DNA of 64,000 bases. Origin: Roseofilum casamattae BLCC-M143 (GTDB lineage Bacteria; Cyanobacteriota; Cyanobacteriia; Cyanobacteriales; Desertifilaceae). Position 1 is the stretch's first letter; every line of letters begins with the position of its first letter. The position numbers and the translations under genes were made by a program. The notes below the pieces were generated by a model. It was not told the DNA's origin, did no database searches, and saw only the letters and a program-made list of their open reading frames with translations. Below are positions 23,524 to 37,200 of this stretch, one piece after another. The stretch lies in assembly GCF_030068455.1 (NCBI RefSeq), contig NZ_JAQOSQ010000006.1, positions 62,001 to 126,000 of the forward strand. Direction: 5' to 3'.

Positions 23524-25011
23524 GTGTTAAATTTCTCCCAACCTCGGACATGGTTAACTCTGGGTTCTTGTCTAATTGCTCTGTTTCTTTCCAGTGCATT
23601 TGCGATCGCCCACCAATCGATCGCAAACCGATTGCTCCCCCTCGAGGAGATGTATGATGAGAGTCTTGGTTTGGCTTACTATCTCAATGACTTACTCTTC
23701 ATTGTATCAGAAGCAGAAATTATCCAGAATATTTCTCTCGAGACTGGCGATCGCGAACAATTAGAACTTATTTTTTCCTATCTCCAAGAGTTATCTGAAG
23801 AGGCAAAGACGGCAACAGAAGATTGGGAAGATGAGGAATTATTTTCGGAACTCAATGTTGCATTGGATAGCTTTATCGAAACCTTAGCAGAAAGTCGCGA
23901 TCGCGCGGTAACCGATAATCTTTCTCCCCGCGATCGGTTGGAAATTTCTCGAGAGTTGGTGGAAGCTCGATTAGAATTGCAAATTGTCGTGCAGGGATTG
24001 CTCGAAGAAATTAGTTGGGAACAACAGTGGGAAATTACAGACGCGAGGATCGATCTCGATCGCAGTCTCTGGTTAATCGGAATTTTCCTCGGATTGAGTC
24101 TCGTTATCTTGGGTATTTTGTCGGTTTGGTTGCGTTCTCTGCTCGGACAAAACGAACATAGCGCAACCGAATTGCAACATCACAATCAAAGTCTTTCCCA
24201 AGAATTACATGTTGCGATCGCCGATCTACAAAATACTAAAACTCTGTTAGCAGCCGAATCTCACCGCTGTCGGGAAATCGAAGCAGCTCGGGAAGATATG
24301 GAACGAGCGAAAGAACTTACCGATCTTAAACTCAACTTTTTTTCTCTTGCATCTCACGAATTTAGAACGCCGTTAAGTACGATTTTAGTGTCGGCTCAGT
24401 TATTAGATAATGCTAAAGCTGAATGGTCTGCGGAAAAGCGATCGCGCAATCTGCGACGGATTCAAGCTGCCGCGAAAAGTATGACGCAACTGCTAGCGGA
24501 TATTCTCATTCTCACTCGCGCCGAAGCTGGAAAATTAGAGTTTACGCCAGAAACCATTACTTTACCGGAATTTTGCCAAAATCTGGTTGAAGAAGTGAAA
24601 TACAATACTCAAGCTCAACATGAAATTTCTCTTTCTTATGATGGAGACTATCAAGAAGCTTATTTAGATGAAAAACTCCTGCGCGCAATTTTAATGAGTT
24701 TGCTCGTGAATGCCATTAAATATTCCCCTCCAGAGAGCGAAATAAAATTAATTGTTATTGGAGAAGAAAATAAGACTCGTTTTCAAGTGTGCGATCGCGG
24801 TATTGGCATTCCTCCCGTCGATCGCAAACATCTGTTTGAGACATTCCACCGAGGACAAAACGCGCAAGCTTCCGTGGGAACCGGTTTGGGTTTAGCTCTG
24901 GTGAAAAAATGCTTGGATTTGCATGGGGGTGCGATCGCAGTAGACAGTCAACTCGGTACGGGAACCACTTTCACCATTGAGATTCCTTGGCTCTCTCGTT
25001 CGGAAGAATAA
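23524..25011 (+). CDS. Membrane sensor histidine kinase
   Basis: 495 residues from a GTG at 23524. TM1 (about 11-30), an acidic, mostly helical extracytoplasmic sensor of about 150 residues, TM2 (182-204), a coiled-coil linker, HisKA with acceptor His278 (SLASHEFRTPLSTI), and HATPase_c with N box (LLVNAIKYSP), G1 (DRGIGIPP), F (LFETFHR) and G2 (GTGLGLALVK). The sensor is of four-helix-bundle appearance and matches no named domain by eye. Likely partner of the divergent response regulator. It ends exactly where the convergent Uma2 gene ends, with no spacer. Confidence 0.92.
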   Translation: MLNFSQPRTWLTLGSCLIALFLSSAFAIAHQSIANRLLPLEEMYDESLGLAYYLNDLLFIVSEAEIIQNISLETGDREQLELIFSYLQELSEEAKTATEDWEDEELFSELNVALDSFIETLAESRDRAVTDNLSPRDRLEISRELVEARLELQIVVQGLLEEISWEQQWEITDARIDLDRSLWLIGIFLGLSLVILGILSVWLRSLLGQNEHSATELQHHNQSLSQELHVAIADLQNTKTLLAAESHRCREIEAAREDMERAKELTDLKLNFFSLASHEFRTPLSTILVSAQLLDNAKAEWSAEKRSRNLRRIQAAAKSMTQLLADILILTRAEAGKLEFTPETITLPEFCQNLVEEVKYNTQAQHEISLSYDGDYQEAYLDEKLLRAILMSLLVNAIKYSPPESEIKLIVIGEENKTRFQVCDRGIGIPPVDRKHLFETFHRGQNAQASVGTGLGLALVKKCLDLHGGAIAVDSQLGTGTTFTIEIPWLSRSEE

Positions 25012-34264: not shown

Positions 34265-34306
34265 ATGAAAATGGAGACAGGAAAACTTGGTTCCCCTAGA
34301 TACTGA
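34265..34306 (+). CDS. Possible leader peptide upstream of the CDPS gene
   Basis: A 13-codon frame (MKMETGKLGSPRY) with AGAGGG six bases upstream; its TGA (34304-34306) is followed after two bases by the CDPS ATG (34309). The CDPS start itself has no ribosome site, so translation might be coupled through this frame. A frame this short can arise by chance. Confidence 0.3.
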   Translation: MKMETGKLGSPRY

Positions 34307-34308
34307 AA

Positions 34309-35169
34309 ATGAGTACCCAAGAAACGATAGTTCAAAATATAGATTGGAACCAATTTTCCATAGAACAGTTAAAACAGATTCAATCTGAAGTTTGTAAAGC
34401 AATTTACCAAAAACAATCATCCTCAAAGTTAACGTCTCCAACAACGAGTCAAGCTGGCAATTATAAAGTCTCTGTTGCGAAAGTCTTTCCCAGACCTCTC
34501 CGTCATTCACTGACTGACTATCAAAACTGTATTTTCTTAATTAGCCTCGGCAGCAAAAATGTTACCCATAGTAACCGGCTAAAAGCATGTATTGAGTGGA
34601 TTAGTCAAAATTTCCAAACTTGTACGGTTGTGGTTGTAGATAGTATTTATCGACTAACTCTTGAAATCAGGCATCAATTTATAGGGGAAAGAGCTTTGCA
34701 GGAAGCTCTCCAAACCGGTCAAGAGTTTATCGATCGCAATCGGGATTATTTTGCACAATGGGAACAACAGTGCCAGTTTCAGTTCAAATGCACTTCAGAC
34801 ATTGAAATGGAGTATGAATCGCGCTTTACTCAATATTATCAGCAGCTTCAAATGCTTTATCAAGCGAATGTATCGTTTCAATCTATGGTAGATCGGTTTG
34901 CACGAGATTATCTCAACCGAGGCAAAGAAAGGACTCCCAATTCGGAACGAGAAGATCGACCTCAAGAATCTGTCCTCGCTAAAACTTACTGCCTGGAAGA
35001 ATCAGCATTATTTACCTGTTTGGTAGAAGAGAAAAACTGCCCTTTTATCTATCCCGGATCGATTAAAACATTTGAAGAAATCTCAGACGGACTATATCCA
35101 GATGTTCCTCAACCTCTACAATCAATGATTTGGGTTAGTTTGCGGTTGAATAAGAAACGGGAAAGTTAA
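34309..35169 (+). CDS. tRNA-dependent cyclodipeptide synthase (CDPS), XYP subfamily
   Basis: 286 residues. CDPSs take two aminoacyl-tRNAs and make a cyclic dipeptide (diketopiperazine) by a ping-pong acyl-serine mechanism. The Rossmann-like core is clear: KVFPRPLR basic patch, then IFLISLGSKN with Ser79 as nucleophile and Ser82 where NYH members have Asn; VVVVDSIYRLTLEIRHQFIG with A..EA..G.EF.DRN after it; YCLEESALF giving the Tyr227/Glu231 pair; and FIYPGS with Tyr248-Pro249, the YP of the XYP subfamily in place of YH. It ends LPMIWVSLRL-like (QSMIWVSLRLNKKRES). Product amino acids cannot be predicted by eye. There is no adjacent cyclic dipeptide oxidase or P450; nearest possible tailoring enzyme is the 2OG dioxygenase at 36088. 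Confident in family. Confidence 0.87.
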   Translation: MSTQETIVQNIDWNQFSIEQLKQIQSEVCKAIYQKQSSSKLTSPTTSQAGNYKVSVAKVFPRPLRHSLTDYQNCIFLISLGSKNVTHSNRLKACIEWISQNFQTCTVVVVDSIYRLTLEIRHQFIGERALQEALQTGQEFIDRNRDYFAQWEQQCQFQFKCTSDIEMEYESRFTQYYQQLQMLYQANVSFQSMVDRFARDYLNRGKERTPNSEREDRPQESVLAKTYCLEESALFTCLVEEKNCPFIYPGSIKTFEEISDGLYPDVPQPLQSMIWVSLRLNKKRES

Positions 35170-36087: not shown

Positions 36088-37200
36088 ATGACATCACTAC
36101 AATTATCAGTTGGCGATTTTGCCCCAGCATTTATTATGCCTTGCCAAACTGGGGAACGATTGGATAGTCGCCGTTTCCAAGGAGAACCCATGCTTTGGGT
36201 CTTTTTTCCAGACATTACCGACACTCAATCTCAAACATTACTCTTGGGCTTGCAAGGGTTGCACGAGCAATTGAAGCCGTGGAATTTAGAAATTATGGCT
36301 ATTAGTACCGACTCAGTCGCCACTCTATCTCAGTTTAGCCAAGACCACAACATTTCCTTTTCTCTCATCTGCGATGAAAATGGCGAGATCGTGCAAGGAT
36401 TGGGATTAAATCGTCCCGAACTTCCCAGTGGAGAAGTCAAAGCCAAGTTTACCACATTTTTGATTCATTCCAACTATAAAATTGTCCAAATCAATACAGA
36501 TTTTAATATCGAAACTTACCTCGATCGCCTATTAGACGATCTGAACCATTTACTCCCTCGGGAGAACCCCCATCACTTGAGACAAATAGCTCCCGTTCTG
36601 CTCATTCCCAATGTGCTATCTCGCGACTTTTGCCGCCAGTTAATTGAAGTTTGGAGAACTCAAGGTCATGGAGATTCTGGATTTATGGTGCAGCGAGCTG
36701 GGAAAACCATCGGAGAATTCGATTACGGGCATAAAATTCGCAAAGATCACTTTGTTCGAGACGAGCAACTCATTAATCAATTGCGCTATTTCATTATTCG
36801 CCGCGTCCGTCCCGAATTGTTGAAAGCTTATTATTTTGATATGACCCGCTTTGAAGATTTTCGCATTGCCTGTTACGAGTCGAGTCGAGGTGGTTTTTTC
36901 CGCCGACATCGAGATAATACGACGTCGGGTACGGCACACCGGCGGTTTGCCATGACTCTCAATTTAAATACGGAAGAGTATGAAGGAGGATATTTGCGCT
37001 TCCCCGAATACGGTCCCCATTTATATCGTCCGGAAACGGGAAGTGCGGTTATTTTCTCCTGTTCCTTACTTCATGAAGCGACTGATGTTACTGCCGGCGA
37101 TCGCTTTGCTCTGTTAAGTTTTTTCTATGGCGAGAAAGAGGCTCAGTTGCGCGATAAAACGCAACAACAGAAAGAAACGGCAAGCTCCAATATTTCTTAA
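36088..37200 (+). CDS. Peroxiredoxin-like / 2OG-Fe(II) dioxygenase fusion
   Basis: 370 residues. Residues 1-155 form a thioredoxin-fold AhpC/TSA domain (VGDFAPAFIMP, MLWVFFPDITDTQ, TFLIHSNYKI), but the peroxidatic Cys expected after FFP is absent (FFPDITDTQSQT). Residues 170-350 are a prolyl-4-hydroxylase-type dioxygenase with His274 and Asp276 (RRHRDN), distal His329 (SLLHEAT) and 2-oxoglutarate-binding Arg339 (GDRFALLSF), so the oxygenase half looks active and the peroxiredoxin half does not. GGAGGA ahead of the ATG gives a strong start. Substrate unknown: protein hydroxylation is possible, and 2OG oxygenases tailor cyclodipeptides elsewhere, but two minus-strand genes lie between it and the CDPS gene. 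Confidence 0.87.
   Translation: MTSLQLSVGDFAPAFIMPCQTGERLDSRRFQGEPMLWVFFPDITDTQSQTLLLGLQGLHEQLKPWNLEIMAISTDSVATLSQFSQDHNISFSLICDENGEIVQGLGLNRPELPSGEVKAKFTTFLIHSNYKIVQINTDFNIETYLDRLLDDLNHLLPRENPHHLRQIAPVLLIPNVLSRDFCRQLIEVWRTQGHGDSGFMVQRAGKTIGEFDYGHKIRKDHFVRDEQLINQLRYFIIRRVRPELLKAYYFDMTRFEDFRIACYESSRGGFFRRHRDNTTSGTAHRRFAMTLNLNTEEYEGGYLRFPEYGPHLYRPETGSAVIFSCSLLHEATDVTAGDRFALLSFFYGEKEAQLRDKTQQQKETASSNIS

Follow-up and report, generated by a model that had tools for sequence, protein, structure and literature searches.

Background

The locus described here raises two questions: whether Roseofilum casamattae BLCC-M143, a cyanobacterium, encodes a tRNA-dependent cyclodipeptide synthase (CDPS), and which of the neighbouring genes, if any, belongs with it. 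The window, the whole stretch of DNA that was analysed, is 64,000 nucleotides long. A first-pass annotation had proposed a CDPS of the XYP type, unusual for a cyanobacterium, and had named a 2OG oxygenase, two sulfotransferases and a TerB-like protein as possible partners. As of 2010 every CDPS found was standalone, according to the available part of PMC2922099. The CDPS fusions reported in the available text of PMC5816076 carry a C-terminal methyltransferase, P450 or ABC-transporter; for CDPS 99, an XYP enzyme of Lyngbya confervoides, the same text records no product in E. coli, and it blames tRNA or start-codon mismatch for the inactivity of cyanobacterial XYP CDPSs in that host. One CDPS cluster in each of nine Roseofilum MAGs is recorded in the accessible portion of PMC9967302.

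Results

The window encodes an XYP-subfamily CDPS

The open reading frame (ORF) at 34309-35169(+) encodes an XYP-subfamily CDPS (Table 1). It is uninterrupted, starts with ATG and specifies 286 amino acids, with a catalytic core that begins at about residue 51. The NCBIfam model TIGR04539 (tRNA-dependent cyclodipeptide synthase) matched the protein at 52.5 bits, above the cut-off of 45 (E 4.5e-14). Pfam-A returned no family at E<=0.1, and the PF16715 search proposed in the first-pass annotation came back empty for the window protein alone; PF16715 does match its distant relatives. Because PF16715 gives no match here, mining with the Pfam CDPS model alone would miss the window CDPS.

Table 1 Features of the window and of related loci
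Feature	Location	Strand	Basis or remark
TerB-like protein, 160 aa	33690..34172	+	PF05099; linkage; L068 fusion; alignment of 16
TerB-CDPS gap with stem-loop	34173..34308	+	3' arm has AGAGG stretch ahead of the uORF
13-codon uORF MKMETGKLGSPRY	34265..34306	+	Direct reading; stops 2 nt before the CDPS ATG
CDPS, XYP subfamily	34309..35169	+	TIGR04539; PDB relatives; model and fold match; active-site residues
CDPS N-terminal extension, residues 1-51	34309..34461	+	Alignment; model; profile search; motif ETIVQNIDWNQFSIEQLKQIQSEV
L066 array			Three CDPSs (one broken) and three TerBs
L067 array			Two CDPSs and two TerBs
L068 array			Three CDPSs (one fused) and two TerBs
L073 array			Two CDPSs and one TerB
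Extended CDPSs	L083:9533-10747; L144:5991-7160; L145:4471-5607; L146:5207-6382
Extended CDPSs, rest	L147:5789-6949; L148:3744-4904; L149:6045-7085

A sequence search of the PDB placed 9j61 first (E 2.8e-36), with other CDPSs next; no publication on 9j61 was found. The 14 PDB sequences at E<=0.0065 are CDPSs, including 5mlp, which is listed as uncharacterized in the sequence search and named a Rickettsiella CDPS in the Foldseek output, and two weaker rows (E 0.1 and 0.27) are unrelated. An AlphaFold2 model built on 27 sequences had a mean pLDDT of 88.1 and a pTM of 0.79. Among the best 50 Foldseek matches to this model, ranks 1-44 were CDPSs and ranks 45-50 TyrRS, the best being chain H of 9j61 (Streptomyces sapporonensis CDPS; TM 0.94 by target length). 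The predicted fold is CDPS-like and contains the class-I aaRS-like Rossmann core, with TyrRS 6hb7 matched at E 1e-4.

Alignment with AlbC (letters 18-231) paired S79 with S37, S82 with N40 (Ser here), Y227 with Y178, E231 with E182, Y248 with Y202 and P249 with H203 (Pro here), so that all six residues named in the first-pass annotation lie where it had put them. The Ser nucleophile, Tyr178, Glu182 and Tyr202 are the catalytic residues of AlbC. S79, Y227, E231 and Y248 are invariant across the 22 rows of type A, the clade around the window CDPS. The protein is an XYP enzyme because Ser82, Tyr248 and Pro249 occupy AlbC positions 40, 202 and 203, and in the tree it groups with the XYP rows, apart from the NYH rows, a placement to be read with caution because of long branches. 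Every row of the type A clade is cyanobacterial (support 97/92 with 22 rows and 100/100 with 24 rows, in midpoint-rooted trees). TIGR04539, active-site residues, predicted structure and tree agree on a tRNA-dependent CDPS of the XYP type, as first proposed; family, fold and active site are thereby established by computation. Cyclodipeptide synthesis from aminoacyl-tRNAs is predicted from the family.

CDPS genes are uncommon in cyanobacteria

TIGR04539 passes in 4 of 386 genomes sampled over the phylum, and profile A3 matched 27 of 388 genomes of the order, remnants counted. Within the genus a CDPS is present in five of six genomes, in one of them truncated. The earlier view of a cyanobacterial CDPS as unusual therefore holds for frequency; it does not hold for novelty, as cyanobacterial XYP CDPSs themselves are already known from the available text of PMC5816076. 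No match to a related CDPS was obtained in viral contigs or in plasmids. A contig scan with the single window protein gave no match, and alignment-based patterns gave 26 loci: 19 cyanobacterial, one in Synechococcus (L083), four in Streptomyces, one in Actinokineospora and one in Photorhabdus.

A second, distant CDPS lies in the window's own genome (G000:C3, L008:9011-9676; 22% identity, PF16715 35.9 bits). It has Phe at the Tyr178 position and a look-alike in genome G544 (L150:2896-3612), with no TerB beside either.

A TerB-like gene accompanies related CDPSs

The protein encoded immediately upstream of the CDPS matched PF05099 at 36.3 bits (cut-off 24.4) and has a solved relative in PDB 2ou3 (E 1.2e-13). 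Two acidic stretches, ADGELAEAE and RADGAYHDRE, are conserved in an alignment of 16. The TerB family is, we presume, one of Ca2+-type metal binding, which is putative here.

When window ORFs from 24 to 48 kb were compared with the surroundings of the CDPS genes in five further genomes (G386, G389, G388, G213 and G360), only TerB and CDPS recurred (E<=1e-6). The TerB-like protein, originally one candidate partner among others, is the only suggested neighbour found beside related CDPSs. Neither the sulfotransferases nor the peroxiredoxin/2OG oxygenase has a homologue in the five neighbourhoods, and tailoring by these proteins was rejected. By Pfam, the ORF at 36088-37200 joins a peroxiredoxin (AhpC/TSA) domain to a 2OG-Fe(II) oxygenase domain. 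The ORF at 24094-25011 has a 26% match in the second CDPS locus of the same genome. No cyclodipeptide-type oxidase was recognised among the window neighbours run against Pfam.

Linkage was counted over 43 CDPS hits, from the 26 pattern-found loci together with the window, L016, L018, L009, L008, L011 and L090-L094, after removal of the duplicate contigs L010 (=L065), L017 (=L088) and L095 (=L070); the loci of this census were found with CDPS queries. A TerB was present within 700 bp of 24 of the 32 type A or B CDPS copies, in all 24 cases on the same strand, although at L084 it is only a 25-residue remnant. At least one TerB lies near a CDPS in 18 of the 26 type A/B loci, and the nearest TerB is upstream of the CDPS in 16 of the 24 cases and downstream in eight. 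For a gene chosen at random, chance predicts about 0.0005 close TerB at a distance of up to 700 bp, a figure based on 37 TerB copies (>=50% identity, >=90 residues) across 21 genomes, which by our own summation total about 157 Mb. The loci cannot be treated as independent: additional genes in the flanks are common to L016/L017, to L009/L018, to L064/L075/L077 and to L073/L078, and a single genome contains both L079 and L084.

Eight of the 32 copies have no near same-strand TerB. The stretch contains none at L009 (truncated CDPS), L070, L074 (contig edge), L076, L080 (broken CDPS) and L092 (contig edge), and L090 and L091 have an opposite-strand TerB at a distance of 1.8 and 2.5 kb, separated from the CDPS by a P450 or P450-like gene (PF00067 confirmed for L090). 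In G395, the genome of L070, the CDPS is intact and the search for TerB gave nothing at E<=0.001, which makes a requirement for TerB unlikely in this genome. No TerB was found near the five other cyanobacterial hits (L083, L093, L094, L008 and L011) or the six non-cyanobacterial ones. At a site between fabI-like and hisB-like genes (names from reading), G388 (L018) keeps both a type B CDPS and its TerB, and at the same place in G213 (L009:7026-7655) the CDPS is cut short and TerB is gone.

Replication in the order sample added two type A loci with TerB on the same strand, L141 and L142, which are not independent because they are near-copies of L067b. L143 has a type B CDPS, a P450-like gene and TerB on the other strand. 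Strand agreement fails at L144 and L145, whose CDPSs branch near type B and have additional N-terminal sequence: TerB is encoded on the opposite strand there, at distances of 760 and 139 bp. The stretches of L146-L150 contain no TerB, and no CDPS ORF was recovered from L151. A TerB-CDPS link was not found among the titles listed from the open-licence PMC literature; by term search, PMC2922099 mentions neither TerB nor an editing domain, and PMC7159879 neither CDPS nor TerB.

TerB and CDPS are fused once and form arrays

TerB and CDPS share one frame of 454 aa at L068:9479-10843, in which the TerB part is 63% identical over 147 residues and the CDPS part 53% over 278, with PF05099 above its cut-off; in the fusion alignment (A8) three residues per CDPS row still stray. 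Fusion and linkage, too, are established by computation. Arrays occur in four loci (L066, L067, L068 and L073). The model of the fusion has a disordered linker (pTM 0.61) and resolved no docking of TerB on CDPS. A Mantel test on 18 TerB-CDPS pairs gave r 0.164, with 1173 of 9999 permutations as high; when the type B pair was omitted, r was 0.202 (598 of 9999). Neither value shows clear coevolution. A tight, coevolved interface thus has no support from the Mantel test or from the loose fusion model. The TerB of L018 (type B) shares 53-73% identity with the other 17 TerBs; between the CDPS of L018 and the CDPSs paired with those TerBs, identity is 29-35%.

TerB copies also adjoin NRPS genes

Outside fragments, 37 close TerBs (21 genomes; >=50% identity over >=90 residues) were found. 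Of these, 23 have a CDPS no more than 2.6 kb away, and a further copy (G404:C316) is near a 23-residue CDPS remnant. Four lie 4-298 bp downstream of a thioesterase-ending NRPS (L096, L099, L103 and L104). Four more are at other places in the clusters of L098 and L099, where thioesterase NRPS ends and asparagine synthetase occur (by Pfam for L098, by reading for L099). Three adjoin methyltransferases (L100, L101 and L102), one adjoins a P450 end (L097, genome G396) and one is at a contig end. G396 also has a type B CDPS (L092) whose downstream ORF is cut off and has no Pfam match, and a CDPS-P450-TerB order across the contig break is possible. These neighbour classes were assigned by reading neighbourhood lists; of the TerBs below 50% identity, 13 and 5 stretches were viewed, a part of the set. 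A distant TerB paralogue (about 31%) occurs in three genomes of the genus (L058:5942-6484, L059:6162-6662 and L060:5894-6394), next to genes for an O-methyltransferase and a protein resembling type III polyketide synthases (Pfam on L058).

Pocket residues suggest a hydrophobic product

The pocket letters of the window CDPS, ILVVTLFF in P1 and FDYRGIK in P2, differ from every row of Table 2 in the available text of PMC5816076. With position 155 left out, P2 is almost invariant: 20 of the 22 rows of type A read F-x-Y-R-G-I-K, the exceptions having Leu (L066a) or Arg (L066b) at one place each. P1 is hydrophobic or small and variable across these rows, also between paralogues of an array (for example VLLSALLL and IGLTTINA in L067). 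Compared with random core columns, P1 showed no significant excess of variability (p 0.11). The difference in variability between P1 and P2 had p 0.03, with p 0.04 for the whole of P2 and p 0.00025 for P2 without position 155, an exclusion picked after the data were seen.

Under the cLI/cLL group test (P1 FGLGC[VI]F[MF], P2 FxYRGF[SG]), the type B copies L018 and L068_B pass and the window CDPS fails. L086 (P1 FGLGCVFM, P2 FRYRGFS) equals one row of Table 2 in PMC5816076, whose row labels are lost; the available text lets this row be assigned to CDPS 85 of strain EG49, the strain of L086, and reports that CDPS 85 made cLI at 65.7%. L018 and L068_B are predicted to make cLI/cLL because they share their P1 type with L086/CDPS 85. 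For the window CDPS, a product of two aliphatic or hydrophobic residues is proposed with low confidence, because its P2 is common to the clade and near that of the cLI/cLL group; P1 varies by copy.

Some CDPS relatives carry an editing domain

Seven CDPS relatives of about 350-405 aa have an extra N-terminal part (Table 1). PF04073 (aminoacyl-tRNA editing domain) scored above its cut-off in four of them (L083, L146, L147 and L149) and below it in L148 (22.8 against 25.5), with no match in L144 or L145. The L083 gene overlaps a SIR2/TIR gene by 20 bp and lies near nSTAND1-WD40 and patatin genes. Within the best 25 families, L146 is near a WD40-repeat gene and a patatin, and L147 near a SIR2 gene and, at a gap of 18 bp, a WD40-repeat gene. 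In PADLOC both patatins match effector models and the CDPS P0002 matches none. From these neighbourhoods, the CDPSs of L083, L146 and L147 look like components of a system for immunity or conflict. Editing-domain or defence-linked CDPSs were not found among the titles listed from the open-licence PMC literature.

The N-terminal extension and the intergenic region

In the AlphaFold2 model, residues 8-38 of the extension are mostly helical, with a helix at 18-38 and a low-confidence tether at 40-49. Of the 22 type A rows, 17 have the extension and five (L068c, L073a, L073b, L074 and L078) lack it. Its profile gave 17 strong matches in 15 genomes, each at the place of a CDPS, and three weak ones (E 0.006-0.04), one at a CDPS place; as a domain of other proteins it was not found in these genomes. 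Mimicry of the TerB stretch EEYIETLRKFDW by the extension, a post hoc idea that came from a misaligned MAFFT alignment (hhalign probability 13%, P 0.002), is not claimed.

The RNA of the TerB-CDPS gap folds at z -2.18, with 7 of 200 shuffles as stable. The stem-loop is not special to this gap, because the gap upstream of the window TerB folds at z -3.34. Across loci, 10 of 12 TerB-CDPS gaps (whole gap or last 150 bases) have hairpins at z <= -1.7, of unrelated sequence (the window, L016, L064, L065, L066, L069, L071, L077, L079 and L088, not L067 or L068), and three of eight gaps upstream of TerB do, all within the window's genus. Sigma-70-like sites around the TerB-CDPS pair showed no excess over shuffles.

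Discussion

We consider it probable that the two genes form a peptide-natural-product module in which TerB is a dedicated accessory, indifferent to the product and probably metal-binding. The CDPS would take two aminoacyl-tRNAs in turn and hold the first aminoacyl on Ser79; addition of the second would release a 2,5-diketopiperazine, probably of aliphatic or hydrophobic residues. TerB, whichever dipeptide arises, may regulate peptide biosynthesis, scaffold it or locate it at a membrane, most likely with a bound metal, rather than act as a tailoring enzyme. Its role appears independent of the exact peptide because it stands beside types A and B, is fused once and has spare copies after NRPS thioesterase modules. 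TerB stays similar while the L018 CDPS diverges, and it keeps NRPS company; regulation, scaffolding or localisation is therefore favoured over tailoring or product binding. We infer the chemistry from the family, and likewise the product class and all of TerB's mode of action.

The pair might instead consist of an ordinary stand-alone XYP CDPS and a passenger, with TerB kept by co-mobilisation and lacking a pathway role. The missing coevolution signal would fit, as would the type A copies L070 and L076 without TerB, the intact CDPS of G395 in a genome with no TerB match, and a transposon-type ORF family (TnpB-like by reading) in 6 of 22 clustered loci. However, the 24 near TerBs all share the strand of the CDPS in both gene orders, there are arrays and one in-frame fusion, and the same TerB subfamily accompanies NRPS genes, and a passenger is accordingly judged unlikely.

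A conflict module, in which a triggered CDPS drains aminoacyl-tRNA and TerB restrains it in a toxin-antitoxin or anti-phage-like manner, seems quite improbable. The patchy distribution, arrays and broken copies of the CDPS, the editing-domain relatives beside SIR2, nSTAND1/WD40 or patatin genes, and the NACHT-like gene (name from reading) after the Moorena copy L010 would all suit it, yet TerB also adjoins NRPS modules, a P450 adjoins a type B CDPS, and catalytic residues and P2 are conserved. PADLOC, moreover, gave no match at E<=0.001 for P0001 or P0002, and CDPSs have been expressed for production in E. coli (PMC5816076, available text). That TerB binds the peptide product, for self-protection or export, is very improbable: it would account for TerB beside both CDPS and NRPS genes, but TerB is conserved though the products should differ (P1 varies and NRPS products are unrelated), and besides TerB and CDPS no ORF family occurs in more than 6 of the 22 loci, the one at 6 being transposon-type.

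The window CDPS resembles 9j61 and the cLI/cLL XYP group (Actinokineospora EG49 CDPS 85) in fold and in the catalytic Ser/Tyr/Glu/Tyr-Pro. P2 is similar, FDYRGIK in the window against FDYKGFS in 9j61 and FxYRGF[SG] in Table 2 of the available PMC5816076 text, whereas P1 differs (ILVVTLFF against FGLGC[VI]FM in the cLI/cLL group) and Ser82 replaces the Asn of 9j61 and that group. The six non-cyanobacterial CDPS loci lack TerB, and of the two kinds only the window CDPS has the N-terminal helical extension. CDPS 99 of Lyngbya confervoides, compared by its description in the available part of PMC5816076, is like the window enzyme cyanobacterial and XYP. The window TerB shares the family match and the conserved acidic stretches with the TerB family (PF05099, 2ou3); unlike the family at large, its subfamily is associated with genes for CDPSs and NRPSs.

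We know of no CDPS that needs, or is fused to, a protein partner of the TerB kind. A stronger form of the favoured module, in which cyanobacterial CDPSs require TerB as activator or scaffold and NRPS release shares it as an accessory, is put forward tentatively and is rather doubtful. If true, it would explain why cyanobacterial XYP enzymes produced on their own in E. coli have been reported as inactive, and the CDPS/TerB arrays would be product-diversifying loci with one common accessory. This TerB subfamily, named after tellurite resistance, gains a genomic context in peptide biosynthesis.
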